From Acholoe squamosa (taxonomy: Eukaryota > Annelida > Polychaeta > Phyllodocida > Polynoidae): a DNA stretch of 64,000 nt. Both the position numbers and the translations under genes were made by a program. The stretch is from NCBI GenBank assembly GCA_949317995.1, contig OX439040.1, positions 28,622,030-28,686,029 of the forward strand. Direction: 5' to 3'. This document shows positions 35,146-64,000 of this stretch, piece after piece. Within the stretch, counting starts at the first letter, position 1; every line of letters starts with the position of its first letter. The notes under the pieces are model-generated. The model was not told the origin of the DNA, did not search any database, and was given only the letters and a program-made list of their open reading frames with translations.

Positions 35146-35706
35146 TCATCCTTCCGTAATGTCATTGTAGATGTTTTCGTTCATCCGACCTGTCCCTACT
35201 TCAACGGGGACAGCGGCCGGAGAGGTGCTGGCATTGTTTGTCCGTCTGTGCATGCGTAGTGCCTGTCTGCCGAGGTCATAAAGCAATCGTTCGTCGGCTA
35301 GATCTCCCCCGATGCGGGTCCACCCGGCCTCAGCCAGTCTAGGCATGGAGAATGGAACAGGTGTGGCTAATCCGCCAGTGAAGCGGAGGAGCTGAGTCAT
35401 TGTCGATAACTTCCCTTCTCCTACAAGGGTGGCCGCCAGTCTTTTCGACACTTTCAGCGAGTTTGGGAGGGGGCACATGACCAGGGTGGGTTGCGGCTGC
35501 ATAGACGCTCATGCCCCAGGTGATGCGGGCTCGTGCACTCAGGAACAGGTGATCGATTGATAGGTCTCTTATCAGTGCCTCTCCCTGGGTGTACAGATGG
35601 TCGAAGGGCATAGTCAGTTCACCCAGGAAGATGGTTTCCAGGACCAACGATGCCGAGAACTGTAGGTAGATCCCGTCCGGTGTAGACCGTCGAGCGGCCT
35701 GTCATA
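35146..35706 (-). pseudogene. ORF after env, unknown, apparently frameshifted
   Basis: I do not recognise this protein. Two overlapping frames share it. One runs from the env stop to about 35,339 and reads GIYLQFSASLVLETIFLGEL ... LFLSARARITWGMSVYAAAT. The other, 35,502-35,146, reads LLRFTGGLATPVPFSMPRL ... RNENIYND-type sequence to a TAA. Each looks protein-like in a different half, so an indel near 35,450-35,480 probably split one gene. An ATG overlaps the env stop as ATGA (35,702-35,705), a layout that favours termination-reinitiation, but the frame it opens is short here. Copy R ends before this point, so there is no second copy to compare. Confidence 0.45.
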
Positions 35707-37756
35707 GTCTCCACACTAGGTAGAGTGCGAACAGCATCACAATCGTTAGCAGCAGGGCAAGGACGGCGGTAGGTGTCGAGCAAGCCAGCCGTTCAGTCGG
35801 GCACTCTGGTGGGGGGCCGTAGCACCTGATGGTTTGTGCTGTAGCAGCCGATGTCTGAGATGCCAGGGCTGACGTAGCTAGAGCACGTCTGTGTCTCCAA
35901 CAGAGAACAATCAGTGCAATAATGAGTACCACCGAGAGAGCCGACGAACCCCACGCTGAATACTGTCCATTTTTGTAGGCCACCGGTCTCAGAATGAGCT
36001 TCTTCTTGTTAATCCTGTCAACCAAGTCTTTTAATGGCATGTGAAACGGCTTCCCGTCCGCTTCCTGTTCCATTGATTGCCGTAGTTCCTGTGGGATAGG
36101 GTCGTATACAACGTCCAATTTAGTATCATGGACCTCTGTGGTGACCCAATGAGCCATTTGCATTCCCCTTACAATCAGGTCATTGGTAGGATATGTGATG
36201 GGCTCACGGTCCCTGTGCTTTGCGCATCCTTGAAGACTGTATGGTATCCATGACTTTTCCGTCATGAAGGCACAGTCGCATCCCAGACTTATCACAGCAT
36301 AGTTACTTATGGTTTTAATTTCAGGTGGTCGATTTCCGCAAATCAGCTGTCCCTCAGTTTCAGATGTTACAATAAGGACGGTTTCAGAGTCCAGTTGCAC
36401 TGCCATTTCTTCAAAGTGTCGCTTTATGATATAGTCGACGATACACAATTCATCAATGGCAGATTTGTCATCTCTGATTAGGGCTGCCACGCACTCGTCA
36501 TCGGTGATTTTCTTCATGTGAGGTACGTCCTAACATAAAGTCACTGTGCTCCCGTAGCAACTAGCCCAGTCGATGATTGGGTTCGGTATGTAGTACCTCT
36601 GGCTCATAGACAACGCGATAGCATTTGGTATGTTGCTGACCATCGCGCCATCTGCCTTCTGTCCTGCGACTCTGACTGGTACAGGGAATTTCAGGACCTG
36701 GTACATCCTGAACAGGTGTTCTTCTGAGATGACTGGTATGCGCAGGGTCACAACTATTGATGAGCCGTCGCGAGTGCACTGAGGGCGAGCATTCTCATAG
36801 TAAAATGCTGGTGATTTAAAGGCAGACCTGAACCTTGAGTATTTCTGTCTCAGGTATACGTCTGTCCGTCTCACAGCCTTTATTATGGCTTGAGGTGGAA
36901 TAATCTTAGGTGATAGTCTATGATGTGTCAGCTGGTGTATTTCAGATGTAAAAGTCTCAAGGTGTCTTAAATTGTTCACGTAGTGTAATATCAGGCCTAG
37001 TTTTACCCTATTTAGGTATCCAAGGTATGTGAGATAGGCCCTGTTTGCTTCTATCTTTAGACGATTTCTGACAGAGCGTTTGCTAAGGTTCAACATTTTG
37101 AAGTTGGTAGAGTCAGCTACAGCTTTAAGTCCTGATAATTTGAGTTCTATACTTGTCAACATGACGTTTGTTTTCAGCACTAGGTCCTTTGTAATGTCAG
37201 TAAGTTCATTATGTGCTTCGGTCAGGACTTCTATATTTTTTGCATTGTATTCAATGTCCGAAGCACGGCCGGTTCCGAACACATGATATCCAAATTCAGA
37301 TATTAGATTTAGCACAGGTATTCCTGCACGTATGGTGCGATTAAGTCCGTTGTCTTGAGGTACACTTTCCAATAGCTTAGCTATCATCTGATGACGTTCA
37401 ATACGGAGCTTGGCAATGAGCTCGTCCAGCCATTGTTCAAACACATAAATTTGATTGCACACTGCTTCATACTCTTCTGTTCCATTGCCTATTCTTACTT
37501 TTTCACGGTTGAGTCGACTTATGCACATGTTCGTAACGTTTACATCTTGGTTTAATCCAACATCAGGAGGGATGGTGACAGTCAGCTGTTGCACCACGTG
37601 GCTGGTGTCTGCTATTGATATCACACGTCCGGGTTTTAGGACGACCCCGAGCTTTTCCCTGTGTATAGTCTCTTGGGTAGTCACGTGATGGAGCGTGTAA
37701 ACTATCAGCAGTATTGTCAGGGTTGCAACTTGTGCAACAGGTATCCCGACAATCAT
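35702..37756 (-). pseudogene. env: Envelope glycoprotein, baculovirus F / errantivirus Env-like, interrupted by one in-frame TAG
   Basis: This would be the membrane-fusion surface protein of the element. ATG at 37,756 is followed by a hydrophobic signal peptide (residues ~5-27). N-glycosylation sequons lie at ~73, ~91 and ~139. An RTIR furin-type motif at 140-143 directly precedes AGIPVLNLISEFGYHVFG. This layout, followed by a long heptad-like helix (NIEVLTEAHNELTDITKD), is that of baculovirus F and insect errantivirus Env proteins. An in-frame TAG at 36,530-36,532 splits the frame, and the same frame then continues to 35,702. The distal part holds paired cysteines, a transmembrane helix (ALSVVLIIALIVLCW) and a second hydrophobic segment at the extreme C terminus. 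No other break was seen. The assignment rests on motif layout and not on a search. The TAG is probably a disabling mutation; programmed readthrough is less likely. Confidence 0.7.
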
Positions 37757-38289
37757 TTTAGTGTAGTGAATCGGGCGACGTTGCCCGTTTTAAAGTTTCC
37801 TAGATGTTGGTAGGGTGACTAGTATTTCTTTATGGTTCGTATATAGTTATCCAGGTGGCGTCTGGGTGACTGCCAGATTATAGCTCCCAGAATGCACTGT
37901 AGGGGGCCCTGCTGGAGCAGTGGACGTTTAGTTCACCCGCTCACCACAGGGGCGCTAGGGTAGGCGCCGGGGCGTTGGTTTCACCACTACTGTGTAGATG
38001 GCGCCACCCGCTGGAGTAAGGTGATCAGCTCACTGGTAGCCTCACTGTAGCATCTGGTCAGCATCTGGTCACTGAGTTTTATTTAAATTCGAGTCACTCA
38101 GGCCTACAAGAGATGAGAACATAGGTCCCTGTAGTATATACAATTGTAGCCAATTCCATATGTTAGGGGAGGGGAAGGCCTCTAATTTAGTTCAGTTTTA
38201 CATCTGCTATCAGGGTAATCAGTCACTAGAGTACATCACACCAGTTCAGACACATAACCCTGTTTTTAAGAGTTTATGATTGCACGATC
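37757..38289. promoter_or_regulatory. Divergent env / antisense-ORF spacer with CTCF-like words
   Basis: This 533-bp region lies between env (left, - strand) and the antisense ORF (right, + strand). It contains CCAGGTGGCGTCTGG (about 37,850), CACCACAGGGGCGCTAGG (37,942-37,959) and TAGATGGCGCCACC (about 37,995), all close to the core bound by CTCF (CCACNAGGGGGCGC). Nothing else coding was seen. Joint control of the two genes is an inference. Confidence 0.4.
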
Positions 38290-38643
38290 ATGGAATATAT
38301 TCCTTGCTCCATCGGCCAATCAGTCGTCCTAGTCAGACGAAAGTATTTTAAGCCAGGCATGGTGTACGTATTGGTTGGAGGGGAGGAGTTAGATGACCCG
38401 TCACAGGGTCAACCGTGTATGTTGGTGCAGGCTGGGCCGTATATGCCCCAGGAGCAATACCTGCGGAATCTACTGAGCGGATCACTATTGAGGGCGGGCG
38501 CGACACCCAGTCATCGGCAGAATGCTGTATTGTCTCTACAAGCTGCCGCCATTTCACAAACTCATTGTCCTGTTCATGCGGTGCCGACTGCTCCGTCGTT
38601 CTTTTGTGAGGTAGATGCACCTAATTCACACGTGTCCCAATAG
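38290..38643 (+). pseudogene. Antisense ORF, copy L, 3' part deleted
   Basis: ATG 38,290 opens MEYIPCSIGQSVVLVRRKYF, the same N terminus as the 412-aa antisense ORF of copy R. After about 100 codons the sequence jumps, relative to R, over roughly 1.2 kb (R 62,253-63,455), removing the Ser/Arg-rich and acidic parts. The frame ends at 38,643 in unrelated residues. Four substitutions separate the two copies in the shared part. One is silent in this frame and three change residues, so coding constraint cannot be judged. Confidence 0.55.
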
Positions 38644-38827
38644 GGCGTGGCAGAGGATGTGGTGGTGCCGGCAGAGGCCTATTATCATGCACATACTGCG
38701 TTCCCAGGTATACTTTGCGTAGGGGTCTCCTGGTAGTGGAGTACCTGGCAGACCGAGGGCTTAGTGCTACCTTGTGCATCTGTACGGCCGGGGGCGGGCG
38801 CGCCCTAGCTCCAAGACAGGCACCCAT
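38621..38827 (-). CDS. Small protein with MGACLG acylation-type N terminus, copy L (68 aa)
   Basis: The first ATG (38,827) gives MGACLGARARPPP. Gly2 and Cys3 fit N-myristoylation plus palmitoylation, as on small membrane-associated viral and signalling proteins. The rest is basic and Pro-rich (RRPLRKVYLG, PAPPHPLPRPIG). It is the partner of 62,029-62,235 in copy R, with conserved length and N terminus despite several substitutions. Its function is unknown; inner-membrane association is inferred from the motif. Confidence 0.6.
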   Translation of the reverse strand: MGACLGARARPPPAVQMHKVALSPRSARYSTTRRPLRKVYLGTQYVHDNRPLPAPPHPLPRPIGTRVN

Positions 38828-38854
38828 TGTATGTCCCAAGTTTAATGTGTCTTA

Positions 38855-39272
38855 TTAGAGTGCGCTACTTGCTCCTACTTCCGATGAACTGAAGGGGGAG
38901 GGAAGGACGAGGGCGTATTTATCTTTTATTGCAGCTACTCTGTCCCAGCCTTTATGACTTGCCTCCGATGCTGTTTCATTTATGCAGGTAGGGCAGCAGC
39001 ACAAATTGGTTAATGAATACATCCTTGTCACGTTGTCCAGTCTCCCGAAGTAGAATGGGATGGTGATAATGGTGCGGTCTACAGAGTCAAGGGGAAACAC
39101 ATTGAAATAAATACCAGCTGTTTTACATTGTCCATTTCGTACAGCGAAGAAGTATTCCCTTGTTATCACAGGTATATAGCAAATACTCAAACAACTGTCG
39201 ATATCATAAATGTGAATCCCTGATGCATGTGCACATGGTTCAGCTGTGCCCTATGTAGCAGCCATGTTGGTC
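38855..39272 (-). pseudogene. Cys-rich 139-aa protein, copy L, early stop
   Basis: It is equivalent to 61,582-62,001 of copy R. Here the fifth codon is TAG (TTG in R), so the native start is followed almost at once by a stop. Translation could resume only at an internal ATG near 39,190 (MSICYIPVITREYFF). The remaining frame is open and keeps LTNLCCCPTC. Copy R has the longer C-terminal sequence. Confidence 0.6.
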
Positions 39273-39372
39273 GTATTGTTTTTCCAACACAGAATTAACT
39301 CAACAGTCTATTGTCTATAATAACATGTGCAAACGATATATGAGCTGTGGCAATATAGCAATTTTATATGAG

Positions 39373-39435
39373 TCATTCCTCATCGTCGGACTCTATTATT
39401 ATGACGATTATGGGCATAGCAGGTCCCTCAGCCAT
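39373..39435 (-). CDS. 20-aa micro-ORF with SUMO-interacting-motif-like core, copy L
   Basis: It reads MAEGPAMPIIVIIIESDDEE. A run of branched hydrophobics followed by Ser and acidic residues is the signature of SUMO-interacting motifs. Copy R (61,412-61,474) encodes the same peptide with one Val/Ile exchange in the core. It lies between the acidic ORF and the Cys-rich ORF in both copies. It may be a free peptide or an exon. Translation is unproven. Confidence 0.45.
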   Translation of the reverse strand: MAEGPAMPIIVIIIESDDEE

Positions 39436-39460
39436 ATTTACTATCACAATGGCAAAATGA

Positions 39461-39697
39461 CTAGGCACGTGCATTTCTCCTAGATGTGCGCTGGGCCTGG
39501 ATGAATCTTGCTAGGAGTTCTTGTATTTCCTCAGGAGTGGGGTAATCCTCGTCCCTGATATCGTCATATTCTTCATCAGATAAGTCTTCCATTATCTCCG
39601 CGGTAATTGGATCATTTTCGTAAGTGTAATCAAATGTGTCCAATGGTTCGCGTGTTGGCCGGCTGTCCTCATTCATCATGACAGTTTCAATATTCAT
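39461..39697 (-). CDS. Acidic 78-aa protein, copy L
   Basis: I do not recognise this protein. It is strongly acidic in the middle (MEDLSDEEYDDIRDEDYPTP), followed by a short amphipathic helix (EEIQELLARFIQAQ) and an Arg-rich end (RTSRRNARA). Length and frame are the same as 61,150-61,386 in copy R, with only a few exchanges, so the frame survived divergence. It begins about 26 nt after the stop of the C2H2 ORF, suggesting one polycistronic or alternatively spliced RNA. Confidence 0.65.
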   Translation of the reverse strand: MNIETVMMNEDSRPTREPLDTFDYTYENDPITAEIMEDLSDEEYDDIRDEDYPTPEEIQELLARFIQAQRTSRRNARA

Positions 39698-39722
39698 GAT
39701 TGTATTTCTTCCAATTAGAATA

Positions 39723-39962
39723 TTATTCCGTGACTAGATCAGCGTATCTGCTGCGCATCAAGGCAACGCGGTGTGCGGCGGTGCCGTAGTGGATTTTCAA
39801 TTTAATGGTAGAAGCATATGTTACATTGCATGTGTCACAGTGTGTACCTAGGTAGGGGTGGCATAACTGAAGATGCCACACGACTTCCTGTCTAATATTA
39901 AATATGTCTCTACATACACTGCATATGTGTGAATGTCTCGTTGTGTGGACCGGCGGTGTCAT
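39723..39962 (-). CDS. Two-finger C2H2 protein, copy L (79 aa)
   Basis: It carries two C2H2-type fingers: CSVCRDIFNIRQEVVWHLQLCH (here in halves, CSVCRDIFNIRQEV and VWHLQLCH) and CDTCNVTYASTIKL followed by IHYGTAAH. Spacing (C-x2-C-x12-H) fits nucleic-acid-binding zinc fingers. Copy R (60,885-61,124) has the same length with only a few substitutions and all zinc ligands kept. In this copy its start overlaps the end of the upstream zinc-ribbon ORF, because that stop has been lost. A small regulatory or nucleic-acid-binding protein is likely; the target is unknown. Confidence 0.75.
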   Translation of the reverse strand: MTPPVHTTRHSHICSVCRDIFNIRQEVVWHLQLCHPYLGTHCDTCNVTYASTIKLKIHYGTAAHRVALMRSRYADLVTE

Positions 39963-40506
39963 TATAAGTCATTGAGCGCACCAGTTTTGTTTTTTTTTGC
40001 ATTAAGATTTTCTTAAGTATTTCTACTGTCCACTTATCAGGGTAAGGGGGAGGTGAGGGTTCACCTAAGGGTCCAGCCTCGTATAAGTACTTTTTGCCAA
40101 TTTCCCTCTTCAAATTAAATGTACTTTTCACTTTGTCCCCAAAGAGTTTTTCCAGGTTGTGCAGATATCTTAATTCATATCTTTTAAGACACGTGCGACA
40201 ATCTCTGCCTGGTTTCTCATTGCTATGACAATAGAAACACAGATTGTCCCAGAGAAGGTGCGAAGTTAATTTTCCAACAGTGTAGGTGGCGTGATGCTGA
40301 TTGACTAGAGTCTGTAGTGATGTAGGCAAATTGTAAATCCTCAGGTGAGATTTAGAAACAGCATCTACCGCCAAACCCAGTAAAGTGGCTTTAGTTTTAT
40401 CAAAAGTTTCTATTTTATAATAGTAGTTTCCCCACCAAGAGTCGGTGGAGTAATCGCTGACACTTTCATCCAATATTCTCCTGCCGCTTCTTGTGTAGAT
40501 GCTCAT
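39910..40506 (-). CDS. Zinc-ribbon protein with PPPY motif, copy L (198 aa, extended)
   Basis: It starts MSIYTRSGRRILDESVSDYS. The centre has four cysteines arranged CFYC ... CRTC (CxxC-x8-CxxC), fitting a zinc ribbon. Near residue 150 lies GEPSPPPYPDKW, containing PPPY, the core of retroviral PPxY late-budding motifs that bind NEDD4-type WW domains. Copy R (60,349-60,858) ends at residue 169. In L an A-run change removes that stop and adds 29 residues, overlapping the C2H2 ORF. A GTAAGT donor lies just upstream in both copies. No known family was recognised. Confidence 0.7.
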   Translation of the reverse strand: MSIYTRSGRRILDESVSDYSTDSWWGNYYYKIETFDKTKATLLGLAVDAVSKSHLRIYNLPTSLQTLVNQHHATYTVGKLTSHLLWDNLCFYCHSNEKPGRDCRTCLKRYELRYLHNLEKLFGDKVKSTFNLKREIGKKYLYEAGPLGEPSPPPYPDKWTVEILKKILMQKKTKLVRSMTYNDTAGPHNETFTHMQCM

Positions 40507-40574
40507 ATCACAGTATAGTCACAATTTCTAAACTTACTTGAATAAATAATGCGCCCCAGGCACTAATGTTTTTG

Positions 40575-40745
40575 TTATCCTGGGTGAGTGTTAGATGCTC
40601 TCTGTAGTGGTATTATTTCCTCACGAGCGGCTTGTAACTGTTCAAAAGTGTGTCTGCAGCAGGCAAGCAGACATCCTAGAGTAAGGCCTCCAAAGATTGC
40701 AAATAAAATACAACATTCCAGATATGCAGAGCGTTCTGTCTGCAT
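40575..40745 (-). CDS. Single-pass membrane mini-protein, copy L (56 aa)
   Basis: It reads MQTERSAYLE, then a hydrophobic helix (ILFAIFGGLTLGCLLACC), then a polar tail RHTFEQLQAAREEI. Two juxtamembrane cysteines could be palmitoylated. The same 57-codon frame is present in R at 60,110-60,280; the stop is TAA here and TAG there, and two residues differ. It is the first gene downstream of the divergent promoter on this strand. It could be a viroporin-like or accessory membrane protein; function unknown. Confidence 0.55.
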   Translation of the reverse strand: MQTERSAYLECCILFAIFGGLTLGCLLACCRHTFEQLQAAREEIIPLQRASNTHPG

Positions 40746-42741: not shown

Positions 42742-45700
42742 TTATATCACAATAAAATCACATTCATCGTCCTCCCCGTCTGTATCGGTCCAGTGCGTAG
42801 GGGGACGGGCTTCGGCCCTGGGGCGACTACTCCTCAGAGAAGGTTTCTTGCAACTTTCCTGAGCCGGGGGCATCGAGGAAGGGGTGCGGGCATGCGCCGC
42901 CGATTGCTTCTTTTCAGTGGCGTCATCACTGGCAGACCGTCTGTCCAGGCTAGCCTTTTCTTTACTTTTCTTATTCTTTCCCACCAAGCCTAGCGCCCGA
43001 AGCGCGTCAGCATTTTCTTTGTCATTTTTGCCCACCTTGCATAGTGCCCGAAGCACGTCAGCGTCCTGATTCTTTGTCCCAGGAGGGTCCTCTTGTGTCG
43101 GGACCTTATTTTCTTCTATAGTTTCTTCATGTATTTCATTTCCTTCTTCCATTTCTTCAGGAATTCCTCCATTTCTTTCTTCTTCTTCTTCATAATTTTC
43201 ATTTTCTTCATCTACTTCTTCATCAGGATTTTCATTTTCTTCTTCATCTACATTGTCTTCCTCTGCTATCGCTGGTGCCCAAGTTGTGTAACACCTTTTG
43301 AGTTTCTGTATGTTCACGAAGTGTGGTATTTTAACACCAGTTGCTACAGATGCCACGCGCACTAGGTGGTCATCCTTCACTTCTTCTATGCGGTAGGGCC
43401 CTTTGTAGCGGTCCGAGAATTTAGAGACTCGGTTTGCAGAACACGTAGGGTCATACACGTACACGAGATCTCCTTCATTGAAGTCACAGGTCGTTTTCCT
43501 GCATCCAATCTTTTCCTAAGATTTTCCTCGTATTCGTCTGTGTGTTTTAGCCAGTTTCTTGAATTGTTCTATGTTGTCCTTCATTCTTAGGAACCATTCT
43601 GATTCTGAGAGAGTTGTAGGCGTTGGTCGGTTGTCAGGTAGGCCCATGGCTTTTGTGTCATTTCCAAACAACAGTGTGTAGGGGGAAAATCCCGTTCTAC
43701 CACTGATAGTGGATCGGATCGTCCATAGGGCTACTGGAACCAAATCTGGCCACATGTCATGTCCATCATCGATGTAGCATGCAATAATGTTTTCGAGGCT
43801 TTTGTGCATCCTCTCAACTCTCGCATTCCCGGTAGGCATTCTCGCACTTGTCATGCTGTGGCGGCAATTAAGTCTAGTTGTTATTTCATGGAAGATTTTT
43901 TATATGAAAGTCGGGCCTCTGTCCGAGTGTATGCGTTCCACTTTTCCATATCTGCATATGATGTTCTTCAGAAACAGGTCTGCTCCTGTTGCTGCTGTCG
44001 AATCTTCTGTGCAAAATGCTTCTGGGTATCCTGTCAGCAAATCCATGAATGTCATTATATATTTTGACTTGTCTGCTGCTGGTTTCAACGGTCCTATGAA
44101 GTCCACTTGTACTTGCTGCCACGGGTAATCCGGTGTATCCCAGCTTTTGGCAGCTGCTTTGAAGTGAGGAGCTCTTTTTCTCAGAGCACAGGTTTCACAT
44201 TTCCTGACATATTCTGCAATGTCCTCGTGTAGGTTCTTCCAGTAGTACTTGACCGTCACTTTGCTGCATAGAGCAGCTGTGCCTACATGTCCGCCAGTTA
44301 TTATATCGTCATGTAAAATCTTCAGTACGCTTTGCTGTAATTCCTTTGGCACGACGATTTTGCCACTCACCTCAGTGAATTGTCCTCTTTTCTTTCTACG
44401 TGGAGCTGAGAATTTTATTAAGAGTCCTGGTTCTATCATTCCCATGAATTCTGATTTAATCATGACAGCTTTGGCTTCTTCCCAATCATCTGGGAATACT
44501 TCGTCTTCCAGGTATTCAATCATCTGATTGCAGGTTGGATCGTCACGCTGAGCACTGATCATTCTCTCAGTGCTTATCTCCTGGTTGGGTTCAATGTTGA
44601 ATATTTCACATCCCACGTCTGGTTCGAATTCTTCCTCGTCACTGTTTTCCTCGTCTTCTTGTACACGAGACAGATAGTCTGGTAGGTAATGAGTGGCTCC
44701 TGGTTCATACGTTATTTCCAGATCAAAGTCCGATAATGATAACGCCCATCTTTTCAGACGTTTCGAGGGCGCCTTGTGAGCTTGCATCAGTAATGATACT
44801 AATGGCTTGTGGTCTGTTACCACAGTCACTTTTCCTCCTTGCAACATATCTTCATATGTTTTCAGTGCTTTTACTACGGCCAGGGCTTCCTTTTCAGTCA
44901 CAGTGTAGTTGAGTTCTGCTCCATTCATGGTGTACCCAAAGTACAGGATGGGTCTGTATAGATCATCGATTTTGTGGCAGATTGCAGCGCCACAAGCACG
45001 ATCTGATGCATCTGTTAGCACTATGAAATGTCCACCTATCTCTGGGTGTATCAGCAATGGTGGTGAAGTCAGTTTTGTCTGAATCTCCTGGAATGATGCT
45101 TCACACTTGTCAGTCCATTCAAACGTTGCATATTTTTGTAACAACTTGTTCAGAGGAACAGCTGCCTTGGCGAATCCCGGGATGAAGGAACGGTAGTAAT
45201 TGCACAGTCCCAGGAACGATTTGACAGCTTTCACATTCTTTGGTCTTTTCACTGCCTTGACCTTTTTAATGATCCTAGGTTGGGTTTCAAGACCTTCCTT
45301 GCTGATAATATGTCCCGAGTAGTTGATTCTGTCTTTACACCAATCACATTTTTCGGGCTTGATTTTTAAGTCCGCTTTGGCTAGTGCTTTCAGAACAAGT
45401 TGAACGTTTTTCTGTCTCCCATTTTCATATCTGCTTGAAGTGCTTCTAGTAGATTCCTACCAATCATGACATCATGGCAAAGATTTTCCATGACATGGAA
45501 GTTGAAATATAGTCGTGCTCCTTCCACCATGAATTTTAATCTTGCAGTTTCTGAAATAATTTTGCTGTTACCATCTGCCATATTTACCTTCAGATTTGCA
45601 TCAAAAGTTTCAACTATGCATTCTTCTGGTAGTGATTGTTTGTACCTTTTTGAGATGAAGCAGTCACTGGCTCCTGTGTCGAGAAATGCTGATTTCTCTC

Positions 45701-45818
45701 TTCCACATAAGTTGATGGTCAGAAATAATGGTTCACTGCTAAGTTTGTCATTAGCTGATCCGCCCATAGGATGCAGTGTTGTTGTAATAGGCGGCACAGA
45801 CCAGCCTTTTAGTTTCCC
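42742..45818 (-). pseudogene. pol: Pol, copy L, reverse-transcriptase core deleted
   Basis: It starts after GGGAAAC at 45,812-45,818 with an aspartic protease (FLDTGASDCFIS). At about 45,420 it jumps straight to the end of RT: relative to R, about 1.1 kb (54,979-56,093) is missing, joined at a GAAAA microhomology, so the YLDD active site is gone. RNase H (LTDASDRACGAAICH), the integrase zinc module, and the core with HSDRGPTF remain from 45,252. A further break lies near 43,880. The C terminus reads GPYRIEEVKDD, a Glu-rich tract, a duplicated LRALGxVGKN unit, a basic Ser/Lys stretch and the end DGEDDECDFIVI. It cannot reverse transcribe. Confidence 0.9.
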
Positions 45819-52586: not shown

Positions 52587-52604
52587 TGGTGGAGAATATC
52601 AGTG
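52587..52604 (+). other. Candidate primer-binding site of copy R
   Basis: TGGTGGAGAATATCAGTG lies two bases after the LTR end; TGG would pair with a tRNA 3' CCA. The tRNA is not identified. Confidence 0.5.
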
Positions 52605-52622
52605 GTGTATGCTGCTTAGTTC

Positions 52623-54583: not shown

Positions 54584-57500
54584 AAGGCTGGTCCGTGCCG
54601 CCAACAACACTGCATTCTATGGGCGGATCAGCTAATGACAAACTTAGCAGTGAACCATTATTTCTGACCATCAACTTATGTGGAAAAGAGAAATCAGCAT
54701 TTCTCGACACAGGAGCCAGTGACTGTTTCATCTCAAAAAGGTACCAACAATCACTACCAGAAGAATGCATAGTAGAAACTTTTGATGCAAATCTGAAGGT
54801 AAATATGGCAGATGGTAACAGCAAAATTATTTCAGAAACTGCAAGATTAAAATTCATGGTGGAAGGAGCACGACTATATTTCAACTTCCATGTCATGGAA
54901 AATCTTTGCCATGTTGTCATGATTGGTAGGAATCTACTAGAAGCACTTCAAGCAGATATGAAAATGGGAGACAGAAAAGTGGAAATCTTCAAAGGAAATC
55001 CAATATCAAGCACAGAAAACGAGAAATTGCTCCCTATGCAGGAGAAAATTATATCAGTCTCACCATGGAGACAGGTACAAGGAAAACAAGGAGATACTGT
55101 ACTCTGTGAACCATCAGGACTTGCACCACTATGTGTAGAAAGCAGTGTCAACCAACTAGGAAAAACATGGTGGATAAAAATCATGAATTGCTCAGATAAA
55201 CCTATCATTCTGGGAAAGAATGATGTCCTAGCATATGCCAGTAAAGGTGAAGCACCTGGACTGGACCCTGAAGATCTAACAGACTTCCTTAGAGTAGACC
55301 ATCAACAGAAAATGGGAATACCAGCCGAAGTGTGTCAAATGGCAATAGATTTTGTAAAATCATTGACAGCTGACCAGTTTGAAGAACGAAGTAAAACAAC
55401 ACCAAAGGAAGAAAAGATAAAACAGATCGACCTAAGTGAATCTTGTCTGGATGAAACACAAAAGGAAGAATTCATAAAGATGCTATTGGACAATCAAGAC
55501 AGTCTTGCATTTGACATGTCTGAGCTCGGTCATTGCAAAATTTCACCAATGAAAATTAGAGTGGATGAATCTAAAGGAATAGCCTGCACAAGACCCTACA
55601 GATACTCACCACAGAAAATGGAAGTAATAGATGAGCAAGTGAAACAGCTTCTGGACATAGGAGTGATAGAACCAAGTGAATCAGCATGGCGAAGCCCTCT
55701 TGTAGTGGCTTATAAAAAGAATGGAAAACCCAGGCTCTGCACAGACTACAGATGGCTTAATTCCATCACGTACAAGGACAAGTTCCCCATGCCTACAGCA
55801 AGATCTCTATTCCTCTTCATGGCATACAAGAAACCCACTATGTTCACAGCACTCGATCTTCTCAGTGGATATCATCAAGTTGAGATAGACAAGGATTCAA
55901 GACACTACACAGCATTTGAAACACCTACAGGAGTCTACCAATATCGACGTGTAGCATTTGGCCTTTGTGGAGCGCCATGGCAGTTTACCAAGGTAATGTC
56001 CACTGCTTTAAATGGCCTCATACCGAGGACATGTCTGGCATACCTAGATGATGTAATAATCTACGACCAGACATTTGAGGATCACCTGAAAAACGTTCAA
56101 CTTGTTCTGAAAGCACTAGCCAAAGCGGACTTAAAAATCAAGCCCGAAAAATGTGATTGGTGTAAAGACAGAATCAACTACTTGGGACATATTATCAGCA
56201 AGGAAGGTCTTGAAACCCAACCTAGGATCATTAAAAAGGTCAAGGCAGTGAAAAGACCAAAGAATGTGAAAGCTGTCAAATCATTCCTGGGACTGTGCAA
56301 TTACTACCGTTCCTTCATCCCGGGATTCGCCAAGGCAGCTGTTCCTCTGAACAAGTTGCTACAAAAATATGCAACGTTTGAATGGACTGACAAGTGTGAA
56401 GCATCATTCCAGGAGATCCAGACAAAACTGACTTCACCACCATTGCTGATACACCCATAGATAGGTGGACATTTCATAGTGCTAACAGATGCATCAGATC
56501 GTGCTTGTGGCGCTGCGATCTGCCACAAAATCGATGATCTATACAGACCTATCCTGTACTTTGGGTACACAATGAATGGAGCAGAACTCAACTACACTGT
56601 GACTGAAAAGGAAGCCCTGGCCGTAGTAAAAGCACTGAAAACATATGAAGATATGTTGCAAGGAGGAAAAGTGACTGTGGTAACAGACCACAAGCCATTA
56701 GTATCATTACTGATGCAAGCTCACAAGGCGCCCTCGAAACGTCTGAAAAGATGGGCGTTATCATTATCGGACTTTGATCTGGAAATAACGTATGAACCAG
56801 GAGCTACTCATTACCTACCAGACTATCTGTCTCGTGTACAAGAAGACGAGGAAAACAGTGACGAGGAAGAATTCGAACCAGACGTGGGATGTAAAATATT
56901 CAACATTGAACCCAGCCAGGAGATAAGCACTGAGAGAATGATGAGAGCTCAGCGCGACGATCCAACCTGCAACCAGATGATTGAATACCTGGAAGACGAA
57001 GTATTCCCAGATGATTGGGAAGAAGCCAAAGCTGTCATGATTAAATCAGAATTCATGGGAATGATAGAACCAGGACTCTTAATGAAATTCTCAGCTCCAC
57101 GTAGAAAGAAAAGAGGACGATTCACTGAGGTGAGTGGCAAAATCGTCGTGCCAAAGGAATTACAGCAAAGGGTACTGAAGATTCTACATGACGATATAAT
57201 AACTGGCGGACATGTAGGCACAGCTGCTCTATGCAGCAAAGTGACGTCCAAGTACTACTGGAAGAACCTACACGAGGACATTGCAGAATATGTCAGGAAA
57301 TGTGAAACCTGTGCTCTGAGAAAAAGAGCTCCTCACTTCAAAGCAGCTGCCAAAAGCTGGGATACACCGGATTACCCGTGGGAGCAAGTACAAGTGGACT
57401 TCATAGGACCGTTGAAACCAGCAGCAGACAAGTCAAAATATATAATGACATTCGTGGATTTGCTGACAGGATACCCAGAAGCATTTTGCACAGAAGATTC

Positions 57501-58760
57501 GACAGCAGCAACAGGAGCAGACCTGTTTCTGAAGAACATCATATGCAGATATGGAAAAGTGGAACGCATACACTCGGACAGAGGCCCGACTTTCATATCA
57601 AAAATCTTCCATGAAATAACAACTAGACTTAATTGTCGTCACAGCATGACAAGTGCGAGAATGCCTACCGGGAATGCGAGAGTTGAGAGGATGCACAAAA
57701 GCCTCGAAAACATTATTGCATGCTACATTGATGATGGACATGACATGTGGCCAGATTTGGTCCCAATAGCCCTATGGACGATCCGATCCACTATCAGTGG
57801 TAGAACGGGATTTTCCCCCTACACACTGTTGTTTGGACGTGACACAAAAGCCATGGGCCTACCTGACAACCGACCAACGCCTACAACTCTCTCAGAATCA
57901 GAATGGTTCCTAAGAACAAAGGACAACATAGAACAATTCAAGAAACTGGCTAAAACATACACAGACGAATACGAGGAAAATCTTAGGAAAAGATTGGACG
58001 CAGGAAAACGACCTGTAGACTTCAATGAAGGAGATCTCGTGTACGTGTATGACCCTACGTGTTCTGCAAACCGAGTCTCGAAATTCTTGGACCGCTACAA
58101 AGGGCCCTACCGCATAGAAGAAGTGAAGGATGACCACCTAGTGCGTGTGGCATCTGTAGCAACTGGTGTCGAAATACCACACTTCGTGAACATACAAAAA
58201 CTCAAAAGGTGTTACACAACATGGGCACCAGCGATAGCAGAGGAAGACGATGTAGATGAAGAAGAAAATGAAAATCCTGATGAAGAAGTAGATGAAGAAA
58301 ACGAAAATTATGAAGAAGAAGAAGAAAGAAATGAAGAAATTCCTGAAGAAATGAAAGAAGGAAATGAAATACATGAAGAAACTATAGAAGAAAATAAGGT
58401 CCCGACACAAGAGGACCCTCCTGGGACAAAGAATCAGGACGCTGACATGGTTCGGGCACTAGGCAAGGTGGGCAAAATGACAAAGAAAATGCTGACGCGC
58501 TTCGGGCGCTAGGCTTGGTGGGAAAGAATAAGAAAAGTAAAGAAAAGTCTAGCCTGGACAGACGGTCTGCCAGTGACGACGCCACTAAAAAGAAGCAATC
58601 AGCGGCGCATGCCCGCACCCCTTCCTCGACGCCCCAGGCTCAGGAAAGCTGCAAGAAACCTTCTCTGAGGAGTAGTCGCCCCAGGGCCGCAGCCCGTCCC
58701 CCTATGCACTGGACCGATACAGACGGGGAGGACGATGAATGTGATTTCATTGTGATATAA
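54574..58760 (+). pseudogene. pol: Pol, copy R: full domain set with one stop and one frameshift
   Basis: Protease has FLDTGASDCFIS, and RT has FTALDLLSGYHQVEI and catalytic YLDDVIIY. RNase H has LTDASDRACGAAICH and TDHKPLVSLL. Integrase has HHCC (DDIITGGHVG ... CETCALRK), core DFIGPL, HSDRGPTF, ARVERMHKSL and module KGPYRIEEV. A long Glu-rich tail, a basic Ser/Lys segment and the end DGEDDECDFIVI follow. A TAG at 56,458-56,460 (GAG in L) lies between RT and RNase H. One A is missing near 58,476, shifting the last ~90 codons, which resume at about 58,500. Domain order is Ty3/Gypsy. It is the only copy in the window with the RT active site of this element. Confidence 0.9.
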
Positions 58761-59700
58761 ATATTGAATTGACCTGGTAATCCCAACGGCTGGGAGTTGG
58801 TACAGAGGCCAGCGGGTATGGGAACACCGTGTCCCGGGTTCCACAGGTTTCAACTATTAGGACTTATTACTATTTAAAACCTCCGAGGTTATGAAAAATG
58901 TATATGAAACCCCTGGCTTATCACATGATTATATGAATGATAAATGGAAACTATAATGGAAATGCAATGAAAAGTAACAAGGATAATATGTACTACTAAC
59001 AAAGAATGAAAAGGATACTTATAAAATACTACAATGGAAAATACGTGCCTCGCACAATACGCGCTACAACTAGCCCATTACACATTAAACATGAAAGCAA
59101 CGCGCTACAGTTATCATAGTACGTCACCATTAAGACACTACACAAGATATTATTGAAGGAGAGCAATGAATAATTATCCTCAGAGGATCAAGCATACTCT
59201 AAAAGAAATATAGGAAGCAGAAGGCAGGACTAAGACGTGGACCACTCCACTCTATACTAACAGTAAAACAAGGCTGACACCTAGTGTGCGGATTAGGAAC
59301 CACGCAGCAGGACGGTGCAGTGGCGCCGCCTGACGTGCATATTGGGTACTATACGTGACACAGGCGCAGTGGCGCCGCCTGACGGCAAACAAAGGAACTA
59401 AAGACTGATACACGGCACAGCAAAGCCATCTGGTGTGAAACATTATGACTAGAGCCTGCAGCTCTGCATAGGGAAGGGAGAACGCCCTCCCACTCCTACT
59501 AAGCCTTACTGCACTGCATATGCGTTATCTAGTACGACATACTTACAAATGAACAGCTGTGACTATGATATCTTCAACCCTAATAATATGGTTATAGGTG
59601 TGCAATCTGTAAGCTCATAATAACCTGGAACAAAAAAAAAACAGTACTTACACTGAGTGCAATTTGGTGCATAAGGAATGGTAACAGATCCAATGATTGT
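58761..59700 (+). other. Non-coding region after pol, copy R, with CTCF-like cluster
   Basis: No credible gene was seen. GGCGCC-containing words (AGTGGCGCCGCCTGAC twice, and AGCCATCTGGTGTG) at 59,280-59,440 mirror those of copy L. A block of about 0.6 kb present in L (41,245-41,880) is missing at about 59,610. On the - strand the leader ATG (MHQIALS) and donor GTAAGT lie just inside 59,640-59,680. Confidence 0.5.
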
Positions 59701-59945
59701 ATTACAGTGAGCAGGGATCGTTGCTAGGGACACTACTTTTATAGGAGGTGCTCGACCAGGATTGGCTGAGTAAGGAGCCTGCTGGGCTAGGAGCCGACTT
59801 CCTGGCTGCACAGGAAGCCAGCAGCGCTCTGTTTATGCCAGAGAGAACTGTGGGAAGGCGCGCTAAGCACTGTGGGATGGCTGTATTGTGAGTAACTTCC
59901 GCCTGCCCCCTGTATATATAGCAGCAATGGCGCTCCTCCCCCTGC
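59640..59945. promoter_or_regulatory. Divergent (two-TATA) promoter, copy R
   Basis: TATATATA at 59,913-59,920 faces the accessory genes, and TATAAAAG (inverted at 59,736-59,743) faces back toward pol. They are about 170 bp apart. TGTGGGAA at 59,849-59,856 and TGTGGGAT at 59,871-59,878 lie between them. This is the third copy with the same design (also 40,902-41,220 and 48,702-48,990). Confidence 0.6.
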
Positions 59946-60109
59946 AGTCTTGATGAAGACACCACTGGAGTACCATACCCTGCGCCAGATCACTACTCAG
60001 CGAGCTGCTCTGCACCATACTATAACTCTACTCTACACAGGAGTCATGTCATCATTAGAATATTGGACTTACCTGTGAGTTAGCCGTCTCTGTCTAAGTT
60101 TCTGCTAAT

Positions 60110-60280
60110 ATGCAGACAGAACGCTCTGCATACCTGGAATATTGTATTTTATTTGCAATCTTTGGAGGCCTTACTCTAGGATGTCTGCTTGCCTGCTGCA
60201 GACACACTTTTGAACAGTTACAAGCCGCTCGTGAGGAAATAATACCACTACAGAGAGCATCTGACACTCACCCAGGATAG
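60110..60280 (+). CDS. Single-pass membrane mini-protein, copy R (56 aa)
   Basis: The first substantial ATG after the internal TATA. A ten-residue polar N terminus is followed by CILFAIFGGLTLGCLLACC (membrane helix with palmitoylation-type cysteines) and a Glu/Gln/Arg tail. Copy L has the same frame with two substitutions and a different stop codon, so the frame is preserved. It is too short for homology by eye; function unknown. Confidence 0.55.
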   Translation: MQTERSAYLEYCILFAIFGGLTLGCLLACCRHTFEQLQAAREEIIPLQRASDTHPG

Positions 60281-60348: not shown

Positions 60349-60858
60349 ATGAGCATCTACACAAGAAGCGGCAGGAGGATATTGGATGAAAGTGTCAGCG
60401 ATTACTCCACTGACTCTTGGTGGGGAAACTACTATTATAAAATAGAAACTTTTGATAAAACTAAAGCCACTTTACTGGGTTTGGCGGTAGATGCTGTTTC
60501 TAAATCTCACCTGAGGATTTACAAATTGCCTACATCACTACAGACTCTAGTCAATCAGCATCACGCCACCTACACTGTTGGAAAATTAACTTCGCACCTT
60601 CCCTGGGACAATCTGTGTTTCTCTTGTCATAGCAACGAGAAACCAGGCAGGGATTGTCGCACGTGTCTTAAAAGATATGAATTAAGATATCTGCATAACC
60701 TGGAAAAGCTCTTTGGGGGCAAACTGAAAAGTACATTTAGTTTGAAGAAGGAAATTGGCGAAAAGTACTTATATGTTGCTGGACCCTTAGGTGAACCCTC
60801 ACCCCCCCCTTACCCTGATAAGTGGACAATAGAAATACTTAAGAAAATCTTAATGTAA
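60349..60858 (+). CDS. Zinc-ribbon protein with PPPY motif, copy R (169 aa)
   Basis: MSIYTRSGRRILDESVSDYS opens an N-terminal half rich in aromatic and basic residues. CFSC ... CRTC forms a four-cysteine ribbon at ~90-110, followed by a helix (LKRYELRYLHNLEKLFG). GEPSPPPYPDKW near residue 150 holds a PPxY late-domain core. It ends TAA at 60,858. It is the most complete version, as L reads through this stop. A GTAAGT donor at about 60,316 precedes the ATG, so a longer spliced RNA could skip it. Confidence 0.7.
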   Translation: MSIYTRSGRRILDESVSDYSTDSWWGNYYYKIETFDKTKATLLGLAVDAVSKSHLRIYKLPTSLQTLVNQHHATYTVGKLTSHLPWDNLCFSCHSNEKPGRDCRTCLKRYELRYLHNLEKLFGGKLKSTFSLKKEIGEKYLYVAGPLGEPSPPPYPDKWTIEILKKILM

Positions 60859-60884: not shown

Positions 60885-61124
60885 ATGACACCGCCGGTCA
60901 ACACAACGAGACATTCACACATATGCAGTGTATGTGGAGATATATTTAATATTAGACAGGAAGTCGTGTGGCATCTTCAGTTATGCCACCCCTACCTGGG
61001 TACACACTGTGACACATGCAATGTAACATATGCTTCTACCATTAAATTGAAAATCCACTACGGCACTGCCGCACACCGCGTTGCCTTGATGCGCAGCAGA
61101 TACGCTGATCTAGTCACGGAATAA
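60885..61124 (+). CDS. Two-finger C2H2 protein, copy R (79 aa)
   Basis: ATG 60,885, 26 nt after the previous stop. It has two zinc fingers (CSVCGDIFNIRQEV..HLQLCH and CDTCNVTYASTIKL..HYGTAAH) that fill most of the protein, and the short termini are polar. All ligands are conserved with copy L. Compact two-finger proteins of this size usually bind nucleic acid or protein partners; a regulatory role for the element is an inference. Confidence 0.75.
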   Translation: MTPPVNTTRHSHICSVCGDIFNIRQEVVWHLQLCHPYLGTHCDTCNVTYASTIKLKIHYGTAAHRVALMRSRYADLVTE

Positions 61125-61149: not shown

Positions 61150-61386
61150 ATGAGTATTGAAACTGTCATGATGAATGAGGACAGCCGGCCAACACGCGAG
61201 CCATTGGACACATTTGATTACACTTACAAAAATGATCCAATTACCGCGGAGATAATGGAAGACTTATCTGATGAAGAATATGACGATATCAGGGATGAGG
61301 ATTACCCCACCCCTGAGGAAATACAGGAACTCCTAGCAAGATTCATCCAGGCCCAGCGCACATCTAGGAGACATGCACGTGCCTAG
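61150..61386 (+). CDS. Acidic 78-aa protein, copy R
   Basis: It begins MSIETVMMNEDSRPTREP, then the acidic centre MEDLSDEEYDDIRDEDYPTP, an amphipathic EEIQELLARFIQAQ helix and a basic tail. Frame and length match L. The acidic-amphipathic composition would suit a partner-binding or activation segment, but no family was recognised. Confidence 0.65.
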   Translation: MSIETVMMNEDSRPTREPLDTFDYTYKNDPITAEIMEDLSDEEYDDIRDEDYPTPEEIQELLARFIQAQRTSRRHARA

Positions 61387-61411
61387 TCATTTTGCCATTG
61401 TGATAGTAAAT

Positions 61412-61474
61412 ATGGCTGAGGGACCTGCTATGCCCATAATCGTCATAGTAATTGAGTCCGACGATGAGGAATGA
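61412..61474 (+). CDS. 20-aa micro-ORF with SUMO-interacting-motif-like core, copy R
   Basis: MAEGPAMPIIVIVIESDDEE lies between the acidic and Cys-rich ORFs. The hydrophobic IIVIVI run followed by ESDDEE is a textbook SIM layout, including a phosphorylatable Ser. Copy L differs only by Val to Ile in the core and one silent change. It is unproven as a translated product. Confidence 0.45.
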   Translation: MAEGPAMPIIVIVIESDDEE

Positions 61475-61581: not shown

Positions 61582-62001
61582 ATGGCTGCTACATTGGGCA
61601 CTGCTGAACCATGTGCACATGCATCAGGGATTCACATTTATGATATCGACAGTTGTTTGAGTATTTGCTATATACCTGTGATAACAAGGGAATACTTCTT
61701 CGCTATACGAAATGGACAATGTAAAACAGCTGGTATTTATTTCAATGTGTTTCCCCTTGACTCTGTAGATCGCACCATCATCACCATCCCATTCTACTTC
61801 GGGAGACTGGACAACGTGACAAGGATGTATTCATTAACCAATTTGTGCTGCTGCCCTACCTGCATATATGAGACAGCATCGGAGGCAACTCATAAAGGCT
61901 TGGACAGAGTAGCTGCAATAAAAGATAAATACGTCACCAACGCCCTCGTCCTTCCCTCCCCCTTCAGTTCATCGGAAGTAGGAGCAAGTAGCACACTCTA
62001 A
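61582..62001 (+). CDS. Cys-rich 139-aa protein, copy R
   Basis: MAATLGTAEPCAHASGIHIY starts a protein with beta-like alternating segments (ICYIPVITREYFFAIRN, TIITIPFYFGRL), a cysteine cluster (LTNLCCCPTC) and a Ser-rich C terminus (LPSPFSSSEVGASSTL). No signal peptide and no known family were recognised. Copy L has an early stop, so R is the reference. Confidence 0.65.
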   Translation: MAATLGTAEPCAHASGIHIYDIDSCLSICYIPVITREYFFAIRNGQCKTAGIYFNVFPLDSVDRTIITIPFYFGRLDNVTRMYSLTNLCCCPTCIYETASEATHKGLDRVAAIKDKYVTNALVLPSPFSSSEVGASSTL

Positions 62002-62028
62002 TAAGACACATTAAACTTGGGATATACA

Positions 62029-62235
62029 ATGGGTGCCTGTCTTGGATTTAGGGCGCGCCCGCCCCCGGCCGTACAGATGCACAAGGTAGAACTGAGCCCT
62101 CGGTCCGCCAGGTACTCCACTACCAGGAGACCCCTACGCAAAGTATACCTGGGACCGCAGTATGTGCATGATAATAGGCCTCTGCCGGCGCCACCACTCC
62201 CTCTGCCACGCCCTATTGGGACATGTGTGAATTAG
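62029..62235 (+). CDS. Small protein with MGACLG acylation-type N terminus, copy R (68 aa)
   Basis: ATG 62,029 gives MGACLGFRARPPPAVQ; Gly2/Cys3 suit dual myristoyl-palmitoyl anchoring, and the Arg residues that follow favour binding to acidic inner membrane. The remainder is basic and Pro-rich, ending PLPRPIGTCVN. The upstream in-frame codons have no ATG. The L counterpart keeps MGACLG and the length. A membrane adaptor role is an inference. Confidence 0.6.
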   Translation: MGACLGFRARPPPAVQMHKVELSPRSARYSTTRRPLRKVYLGPQYVHDNRPLPAPPLPLPRPIGTCVN

Positions 62236-62329: not shown

Positions 62330-62338
62330 TATAAATAG
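62330..62338 (+). promoter_or_regulatory. TATA box upstream of a sense ORF in R accessory region
   Basis: TATAAATAG is a strong TATA match, facing 62.36 kb onward. It lies within the segment deleted from copy L. A donor-like AG|GTATGT follows at 62,565-62,572. Confidence 0.45.
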
Positions 62339-62481
62339 GGGATATATTGCTCATTGCGTAGTACATCAGGATCTACTCACTATACACCTTCACTGGGCCC
62401 AATAGACCTGAATAACCCCGCCAGCACCCGGCAGATGGAGGCAGTGGTAGAGAGGTATACCGTGTCCAGCCCTAACTGGAA

Positions 62482-63480
62482 ATGGGCAATGTCTGCTACA
62501 ATACGACGTCCACTGCCTCATGGCATTACTCATCGTCTGACAACGATGGGTCAGCGGATGGTTTAGGTATGTCCGGCAGATGCGGAGCCTTGCCAGACCT
62601 GATCCCTGTGGACGTGGACGGGGCACAGTCTATAATCGTGCCTGGTGGGAATATACTAAGGTCAAACTCCAAATCAGGATCATCAGCCGGTATCTGCACT
62701 GGTCCCTCCAACGCCGAGGCTCCAGTGGCCGACATGGACGACATTGCTGCGGGACTTCCGGCGCCTCCCGACCGACTAGAAGTCGCGCTATCCCTACGCG
62801 GTCGGCTGGAGGCTATGCTGTCCCTGCCGCCCGTTGACACTAAGTCGGACGGACAGGCAGCAGAACGAGGAGAGTTGCCGCTGTCCTGGCGGCCTACAGT
62901 GGAACTACCGACAGGGGTGGTCGAAGCGTTCGAACCTAGAGCCTGTCCACTGCTGTCTGACGACGAACCTACGGCGGCTGATGACGTGCAGTCGCTGGGA
63001 CCGGGTGTCTTGACCATCCCCCCGCCATCAGAACTCCGCGCAGGAGACGAGCTCCTCGACGGAGAGGTGGACGACGACCGCGGCATACTGTCCAACTCGG
63101 TACTGATGGACCGAAGAATTGTCAGACCCGGGGTGGACATCTTAACTAACGGGATGGCACGCGTCCTTGGCGACGGCGACGGCTGGCGCACCGGAGGAGT
63201 CCGAACCACCTTACTCACTGCGACAACCCGCGGAGCAGGGGACGGCGACTCCCGACGTGGACTATGTAACCTAGTGCGTCCCGCTCCGGCTGCAACGTTG
63301 TCTCGAAGAATGGTTCGCGCAGCCGTGGGATTGACAACCGTCGTAGAGGATCGAGACGGCGAAGTCGCGGCCGCGAATCTGTTATACGGCCCGCCTTGCC
63401 GCCAGCCCGACCCGCCTTCTCCCATGGACCGCTGCATCGCAACGGGCGACATCATCGGAGGAGCAGTCGGCACCGCATGA
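62482..63480 (+). other. Sense ORF overlapping the antisense gene (332 aa), doubtful
   Basis: Open from ATG 62,482 (MGNVCYNTTSTASWHYSS) to 63,480, GC-rich and Asp/Gly/Arg-rich, with no domain. It lies downstream of the TATA box at 62,330 but is almost wholly antisense to the 412-aa ORF, which has more protein-like features. One of the two is likely a shadow, and I favour the antisense ORF. A further short + frame (about 63,400-63,706, KWRQLVETIQHSADDWVS) also looks protein-like and is kept open in copy L, so a spliced sense gene remains possible. Confidence 0.3.
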
Positions 63481-63764
63481 ACAGGACGATGACTTTGTGA
63501 AATGGCGCCAGCTTGTAGAGACAATACAGCATTCTGCCGATGACTGGGTGTCGCGCCCGCCCTCAATAATGATCCGCTCAGTAGATTCCGCAGGTATTGC
63601 TCCTGGGGCATATACGGCCCAGCCTGCACCAACATACACGGTTGACCCTGTGACGGGTCATCTAACTCCTCCCCTCCAACCAATACGTACACCATGCCTG
63701 GCTTAAAATACTTTCGTCTGACTAGGACGACTGATTGGCCGATGGAGCAAGGAATATATTCCAT
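62526..63764 (-). CDS. Antisense Ser/Arg-rich protein with acidic C-terminal segment (412 aa)
   Basis: It is opposite in sense to all other genes of copy R. The ATG at 63,764 (MEYIPCSIGQ) is the first in frame; codons before it lack ATG. The N-terminal ~100 residues look folded (VVLVRRKYFKPGMVYVLVGG, QPCMLVQAGPYMPQEQYLR). A long disordered Ser/Arg/Pro region with many SPxR, SRSS and RRDS units follows. The C terminus holds DDPDLEFDLSIFPPGTI, an acidic-hydrophobic pattern like activation domains, and ends DPSLSDDE. This arrangement suggests a nuclear regulator (inference). No homologue was recognised. Copy L keeps only the N-terminal third. It converges on the MGACLG gene and is divergent from env in copy L. 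Confidence 0.55.
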   Translation of the reverse strand: MEYIPCSIGQSVVLVRRKYFKPGMVYVLVGGEELDDPSQGQPCMLVQAGPYMPQEQYLRNLLSGSLLRAGATPSHRQNAVLSLQAGAISQSHRPVHAVPTAPPMMSPVAMQRSMGEGGSGWRQGGPYNRFAAATSPSRSSTTVVNPTAARTILRDNVAAGAGRTRLHSPRRESPSPAPRVVAVSKVVRTPPVRQPSPSPRTRAIPLVKMSTPGLTILRSISTELDSMPRSSSTSPSRSSSPARSSDGGGMVKTPGPSDCTSSAAVGSSSDSSGQALGSNASTTPVGSSTVGRQDSGNSPRSAACPSDLVSTGGRDSIASSRPRRDSATSSRSGGAGSPAAMSSMSATGASALEGPVQIPADDPDLEFDLSIFPPGTIIDCAPSTSTGIRSGKAPHLPDIPKPSADPSLSDDE

Positions 63765-64000
63765 GATCGTGCAATCAAAAACTCTTAAAAACTCCAAACA
63801 GGGTTGTGTGTCTGAACTGGTGTGATGTACTCTAGTGACTGATTACCCTGATAGCAAATGTAAAACTGAGCTAAATTAGAGGCCTTCCCCTCCCCTAACA
63901 CATGGAATTGGCTACAATTGTATATACTACAGGGACCTATGTTCTCATCTCTTGTAGGCCTGAGTGACTCGAATTTAAATAAAACACAGTGACCAGATGC

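Follow-up and report, generated by a model that had tools for sequence, protein, structure and literature searches.

Introduction

Errantiviruses, the env-bearing Ty3/gypsy elements of insects, usually have a compact gag-pol-env form of 5–9 kb with no accessory block. Here we describe an element of 17.6–17.8 kb from the polychaete Acholoe squamosa that shares with errantiviruses a Ty3-type pol followed by an env judged F-like, but is about twice as long, carries about eight accessory open reading frames (ORFs) and does not have the compact gag-pol-env layout. It lies in a 64,000-nucleotide stretch of contig OX439040.1 (C6:28622030-28686029), the whole of which we call the window, where an earlier note had reported two copies of a very large long terminal repeat (LTR) element. 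With a probability of about 0.8, we read the element as belonging to a complex Ty3-lineage endogenous retrovirus family that bears an envelope and has pol and env separated by about eight accessory ORFs, the supporting anatomy being two-LTR copies, 4 bp target duplications, a Ty3-type pol, an F-like Env and young insertions.

Plant Retand elements resemble it in that pol is followed by a long stretch whose antisense ORFs are believed to be regulatory, and differ in their plant hosts and in that the sections cited name no env (PMC11963269). Human T-cell leukaemia virus type 1 (HTLV-1) likewise combines accessory genes with an antisense one, HBZ; in the part cited, the 3' LTR is where its antisense transcription begins, and complex retroviruses have a Retroviridae pol, whereas here pol is Ty3-type and the antisense start presumably lies before env (PMC10186651). 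LTR elements of bdelloid rotifers have acquired extra ORFs shared across element types, which the excerpt cited gives as an ORF3 of one or the other type rather than a block of about eight (PMC5408684). For the plant CRM elements the cited portion describes a chromosomal place that tracks the integrase C-terminus, with exceptions; these chromoviruses, 5.1–10.2 kb long, carry either a CR motif or a chromodomain, while the present element has no chromodomain by Pfam and a presumptive link to centromeres (PMC3059260). A literature search by title and abstract, with subscription journals mostly outside its range, returned no animal Ty3 element with such an accessory block, which fits the earlier note's view of an undescribed complex retrovirus-like lineage. 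Selected accessory genes, an antisense one among them, are a hallmark of complex vertebrate retroviruses, and their presence in Ty3-lineage elements, about eight in number, would put a further origin of such complexity outside Retroviridae.

Complete copies and their DNA ends

The genome (1.48 Gb, 63 contigs) was searched with the LTR, giving 44 matches, with the best 40 of 154 candidates scored. From 30 LTR loci extracted, 14 lead into the gag leader only, seven follow the env 3' untranslated region (UTR) only, two show both and seven neither. Same-strand LTR pairs about 17 kb apart, traced in pieces, gave complete copies on C5 and C8 of 17,620 and 17,762 bp, both with the order LTR-gag-pol-promoter region-accessory ORFs-env-LTR and with 4 bp target duplications (GTTC and GCAC, respectively), as the earlier note had proposed to look for. 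Gag and pol are broken in both copies and env is open in that on C8. Their LTRs differ at 4/854 (C5) and 4/879 (C8) sites (∼0.5%), and eight LTR pairs of this family, hereafter family 1, show 0.1–1.2% divergence. A 3' LTR directly after pol was not encountered: the 3' side of the element is visible at nine of the 30 loci (1.5 kb of flank each), and in all nine it is the env 3' UTR. Parts of the accessory and env block do occur unlinked to LTR-gag-pol in two minor forms described below, a 5.4 kb element and an array of accessory ORF 2 (acc2) on C2; the linkage stands, since the C5 and C8 copies were traced from LTR to LTR and a second family has the same plan.

The primer site begins TGGTGGAGAAT, two bases past the LTR, in families 1 and 3 alike. 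Hand counts, tested statistically, gave GG immediately before the LTR at 9 of 20 sites (P = 1.3e-6) and CC immediately after it at 8 of 12 (P = 9.2e-8), the latter count being affected by where the LTR end is placed in a terminal short repeat whose unit starts with CC. GG is the end of the sequence preceding the 3' LTR and CC lies between the LTR and the primer site, and for this reason the flanking bases look like two-base viral DNA ends that were retained, unprocessed, in place of half of the duplication. Flanks agree at all seven sites with one readable duplication half (C5, C8, L027, L028, L031, C12 and C10); at C10 the other half carries a single mismatch. The counts cover LTR loci L012–L041, omitting L040 and, on the 3' side, L035 and L036; the C16 pair was counted as one, and the C10 and C12 pairs were assumed to be single insertions.

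Pol is of the Ty3 type

Pfam analysis of the frames of R, the rightward copy in the window, placed the pol domains in the order protease, reverse transcriptase (RT), RNase H and integrase. The best PDB match is Ty3 both for RT (E 3.6e-52) and for RNase H-integrase (E 4.1e-38). Retroviral structures, which we take to be foamy virus and murine leukaemia virus-like, match RT more weakly (E 3e-27 and 1e-20), so the RT is not nearer to retroviral than to Ty3 RT, as it would be in Retroviridae. The TG..CA LTRs with 4 bp target duplications in the C5, C8 and family 3 copies are a feature of Metaviridae (Ty3/gypsy). The pol of the 17.6–17.8 kb element is Ty3-type.

The envelope protein

Extending the sequence past the window edge, as had been suggested, gave the env of R as one unbroken frame (Table 1), followed by a 3' UTR, an LTR tail at L009:4161 and then the gag of another copy. 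Five relatives of Env have 32–41% identity and one has 21%. Foldseek matched Env to a myriapod virus glycoprotein, an abalone herpesvirus protein, chu-related glycoproteins and baculovirus F (E 3e-18 to 6e-14), and a match to the F protein of respiratory syncytial virus had an E of 3.6e-5. The Env of a related family (family 2) matches Baculo_F (E 4e-19). Judged by predicted fold and via the family 2 Env, the family 1 Env is F-like, which bears out the baculovirus-F layout ascribed to it earlier.

The second-best fold match of the poorly modelled Env is the uncharacterised abalone herpesvirus protein, and this glycoprotein may have been exchanged with mollusc herpesviruses. Among viral contigs, two stretches with Env turned up, neither of them confirmed.

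Five accessory ORFs are under selection

About eight ORFs, one of them antisense, lie between pol and env (Table 1), in keeping with the eight or more accessory genes counted earlier. Their order is kept in family 4, read in one copy (L055) from integrase to the antisense ORF, with an integrase 83% and accessory proteins 33–55% identical to those of family 1; seven ORFs and the micro-ORF, there with an ESDDE end, are retained in order. Synonymous and non-synonymous changes between the two families were compared by Fisher tests for four sense ORFs (3, 4, 6 and 7) and the N-terminal 100 codons of the antisense ORF. In the sense ORFs, 76–84% of synonymous against 27–32% of non-synonymous sites differ (p 9.7e-8 to 2.6e-19), and in the antisense codons 81% against 43% (p 5.1e-9); the same 100 codons read in the five other frames gave p values from 0.025 to 0.89, the lowest of which points in the reverse direction. 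The five tested ORFs are under purifying selection, which in the antisense ORF is confined to its coding frame, and this selection, together with the order kept across families, shows these genes to be real.

Chance ORFs were ruled out by the selection test between families 1 and 4. A 332-aa sense frame (62482-63480) was dropped as a gene, selection being seen only in the antisense frame of the 100 codons tested, which are the antisense N-terminus and overlap slightly with the end of that frame.

The region is rich in nested copies, and the Pfam search of the small proteins that had been proposed yielded weak C2H2 matches and nothing else of note, both of which would suit an ordinary errantivirus-like element whose pol-env interval is nested junk with small ORFs arisen by chance. 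Given the conserved order in family 4, the selection in five ORFs and the copies traced LTR to LTR, the junk reading is largely refuted and we regard it as extremely improbable.

Related families and the origin of the block

The complex retrovirus reading gains support from this conserved order in family 4 and from family 3, in which the plan recurs over 17,087 bp (C1:115563802-115580888; LTRs differing at 1/725 sites, duplication GTAT). This copy holds a 1373-aa pol frame, a 195-aa one-finger ORF, acc2, a 113-aa mini-Gag, a 61-aa MG-starting ORF, an antisense 418-aa ORF and an env with RSKR/AGIPGLNII. Identity to family 1 is 46–51% in pol, 31% in acc2 (E 5e-11) and 32% in env (E 1e-127), the latter two being clear homologues. 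Family 3 has at least 150 near-identical copies: the best 150 of 279 candidates for the antisense domain are all at least 98% identical, with a frame of at least 403 codons in 147 of them. An antisense frame lies 2.8–3.0 kb from acc2, on the opposite strand, in at least 52 of 75 acc2 rows, a pairing that used part of the 150 antisense rows and an acc2 search confined to the best 150 of 407. The mini-Gag of family 3, an ORF of its own at L047:6325-6666, matches the family 1 Gag (E ∼1e-9 to 1e-10), and its role might resemble that of the short Gag by which Ty1 is restricted in yeast.

Family 2 is an 8.8 kb gag-pol-env element of the ordinary type (best 40 of 69 candidates in the LTR search). A 5.4 kb derivative, in which acc2 replaces gag-pol and env is kept, occurs at L046:4413-9781 (C6:69.81 Mb) and at L051/L053 (C14:15.96 Mb), the C14 copy having identical LTRs; an accessory gene seems to have moved between lineages. 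Between families 1 and 4 the integrase has a dS of only 0.60, so pol and the accessory block differ in age, which points to recombination between modules. This age difference, the solitary acc2 in an element of another lineage, and a presumed promoter of its own with small genes on both strands would all be expected had the block been captured as a cassette from another virus, for example a small DNA virus. We consider such a capture distinctly unlikely, since acc2 and ORF 6 have no relatives in a large protein collection and the family 3 block contains a Gag-derived mini-gene. A structure model of acc2, with a predicted local distance difference test (pLDDT) score of 44, was not used.

On C2, an acc2 tandem array (C2:53,901,723-53,934,158; eight rows, period 4,146 bp) derives, as judged from positions only, from the accessory stretch; its units hold antisense frames of 419 codons, and it looks like a satellite formed from a piece of retrovirus.

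Several observations weigh against the complex retrovirus reading. Gag and pol are broken in most copies examined. No polypurine tract was seen before the 3' LTR, which in most copies viewed is preceded by ..CCGCCCGCGGG, so plus-strand priming may be unusual. The family 1 Env has no Pfam match, its fold matches have TM-scores of at most 0.26, and its AlphaFold model is poor (pLDDT 48.7). In family 4, acc2 is only 45 aa long and joined to the finger ORF. The antisense proteins of families 1 and 3 share 23% identity (E 0.026), a weak alignment, and neither family was among the matches listed in the antisense search of the other; the antisense, MG and finger ORFs of family 3 are linked to those of family 1 mostly by position.

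A possible expression scheme

Transcription from the LTR promoter would give genomic and gag-pol RNA, while an internal promoter ∼0.2 kb before the first small ORF, with a TATA-like box, could give the accessory mRNAs. The interval separating env from the antisense gene would serve as a divergent start for both. Transcription might be regulated by the acidic, zinc-finger and antisense products, and the membrane and acylated products might act at membranes, the MGACLG start of ORF 7 being, we presume, acylation-like. Particles would spread by F-type fusion.

TGTGGGAA, which we take to be like a CSL/Su(H) site, occurs 10 times in the window against 3.17 expected, and nine of the 10 fall in family 1 LTRs (48411, 48432, 48530, 51862, 51960 and 51981) or the promoter regions of all three copies (40998, 48785 and 59849). 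As a switch it was rejected, the motif being found neither in the family 3 LTR nor in the part of family 4 examined.

Integrase tail and chromosomal distribution

Match rows of family 1 (LTR, acc2 and antisense) number 115, which is no copy number because several rows may belong to one element, and fall in 16 places on 14 chromosomes. Twelve of the 14 have one place each, C2 and C3 each have one extra single LTR, and some chromosomes have one copy only. Clusters stand at C2 52.7–54.0, C6 28.56–28.72, C10 37.37–37.49, C11 20.02–20.14 and C12 39.86–39.95 Mb. The analysis used 40 of the 44 LTR rows, 37 rows for acc2, 38 for the antisense ORF and, from family 3, 85 of 150; the antisense search, in which each of the 51 candidates was scored, gave a like distribution. 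Families 4 and 1b are represented by nine copies, seven of them no more than 300 kb from a family 1 place (P = 6.6e-14) and the other two on C13 and C16. Only 1 of 85 family 3 places lies within 1 Mb of a family 1 place, against 2.0 expected, and both family 3 and a neighbouring LTR element in the window (best 40 of 1495 scored), two other young families, are dispersed.

In six stretches of family 1 and one of family 4, pol ends in LRSSRxRAAARPxxHW..DGEDD..DFIxI. One family 1 tail shares 27/34 positions with that of family 4, and one L stretch has E for A; the family 3 tail differs. A Pfam scan of the family 1 and 4 integrase ends found no chromodomain. LRSSRxRAAARPxxHW is suggestive of a CENP-C motif, and presumably the acidic DFIxI end and the PIIVIVIESDDEE end of the micro-ORF are like SUMO-interacting motifs. 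The tail had one unrelated match in PDB (E 8.9), which lends these likenesses no support, and a CENP-C_C profile search of the genome found no host CENP-C.

The conserved tail is a candidate tether that would steer integration to special chromosome places, perhaps centromeres, and the gathered copies may have been aimed at such regions. In its full form the proposal is of an envelope-bearing complex Ty3-lineage animal retrovirus that integrates into centromeres, with a CENP-C- and SUMO-motif-like integrase tail, a second such motif in the micro-protein and HBZ-like antisense control, beside a sister family that has kindred accessory genes but another tail and lies genome-wide. We hold this to be rather doubtful; if true, animals would have their own equivalent of the centromeric elements of plants, and in a virus of infectious type. 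That copies merely survive and duplicate locally where chromosomes are quiet, with no targeted integration, is quite possible, at somewhat short of even odds. Local amplification is seen in the period of the C2 array, in three LTRs spaced 8,415 bp from one another on C10 and in mirror copies on C16, and where a chromosome has one copy only, one place each says little. Against such passive gathering, flanks differ among most copies, LTR pairs are just 0.1–1.2% apart, most copies of families 4 and 1b sit near family 1 places, and family 3 and the neighbouring element are dispersed. With gathered and dispersed families that differ in integrase tail, the question of centromere-like targeting is directly testable in an animal.

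Copies within the window

The window holds the divergently oriented copies R (+, LTR start 51698, rightward) and L (−, LTR start 48701, leftward), which are 95–98% identical across LTR, gag, pol, the non-coding stretch and small ORFs. Both run from their own LTRs through gag, pol, a promoter region and the same ordered small genes, and neither reaches a 3' LTR inside the window, just as described earlier; 3' LTRs were found in other copies. The supposed further ORF after env in L proved to be the broken C-terminus of Env itself, with the same last residues as the R env. A third, partial copy (M) stands beyond the two described earlier. Missing from copy L are ∼1.2 kb, corresponding to R 62262-63459, which make up the greater part of an antisense ORF.

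Table 1. Features of copies R, L and M (window positions unless a locus is named)
Feature	Position	Strand	Description
5' LTR of R	51698..52584	+	887 bp, TG..CA; TATA-like box at LTR position 352
Primer site of R	52587..52605	+	TGGTGGAGAATATCAGTGG; 2 bases past LTR; first 11 bases as in family 3
gag of R	52623..54583	+	frame broken; 405-aa and 84-aa ORFs listed
pol of R	54595..58760	+	protease, RT, RNase H, integrase; frame broken; conserved tail at end
Conserved integrase tail	58608..58760	+	..LRSSRPRAAARPPMHWTDTDGEDDECDFIVI
Non-coding stretch	58761..60109	+	presumed internal promoter; TATA-like 59913, TGTGGGAA 59849
Accessory ORF 1	60110..60280	+	56 aa with a single hydrophobic segment; in family 4, 41% over 34 aa
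Accessory ORF 2 (acc2)	60349..60858	+	169 aa, CxxC..CxxC
Accessory ORF 3	60885..61124	+	79 aa, C2H2-like fingers
Accessory ORF 4	61150..61386	+	78 aa, acidic
Accessory ORF 5	61412..61474	+	20-aa micro-ORF, end PIIVIVIESDDEE
Accessory ORF 6	61582..62001	+	139 aa, CCCPxC
Accessory ORF 7	62029..62235	+	68 aa, N-terminus MGACLG
Accessory ORF 8	62526..63764	-	antisense, 412 aa
Antisense-env intervening stretch (540 bp), first part	63765..64000	.	env ATG at L009:305
env of R	L009:305-2935 (past window edge)	+	single 876-aa frame
5' LTR of L	47809..48701	-	893 bp
gag of L	45809..47770	-	653 aa, frame open
pol of L	43516..45797	-	frame broken
Sense accessory ORFs of L	38621..40745	-	56, 198, 79, 78 aa, micro-ORF, broken ORF 6, 68 aa
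Antisense ORF remnant in L	38290..38643	+	
env of L	35146..37756	-	split into three ORFs: 36530-37756, 35702-36517, 35146-35502
Partial copy M	48702..51697	-	3' part of pol and promoter region; between L and R

The neighbouring LTR element occupies 13.4 kb at 7347-20745 of the window, with identical LTRs of 420 bp, a gag of 913 aa and a pol of 1397 aa; its third ORF (1237 aa) has no Pfam match. The 40 candidates scored are all 100% identical in the LTR-leader stretch, and the element therefore looks very active.

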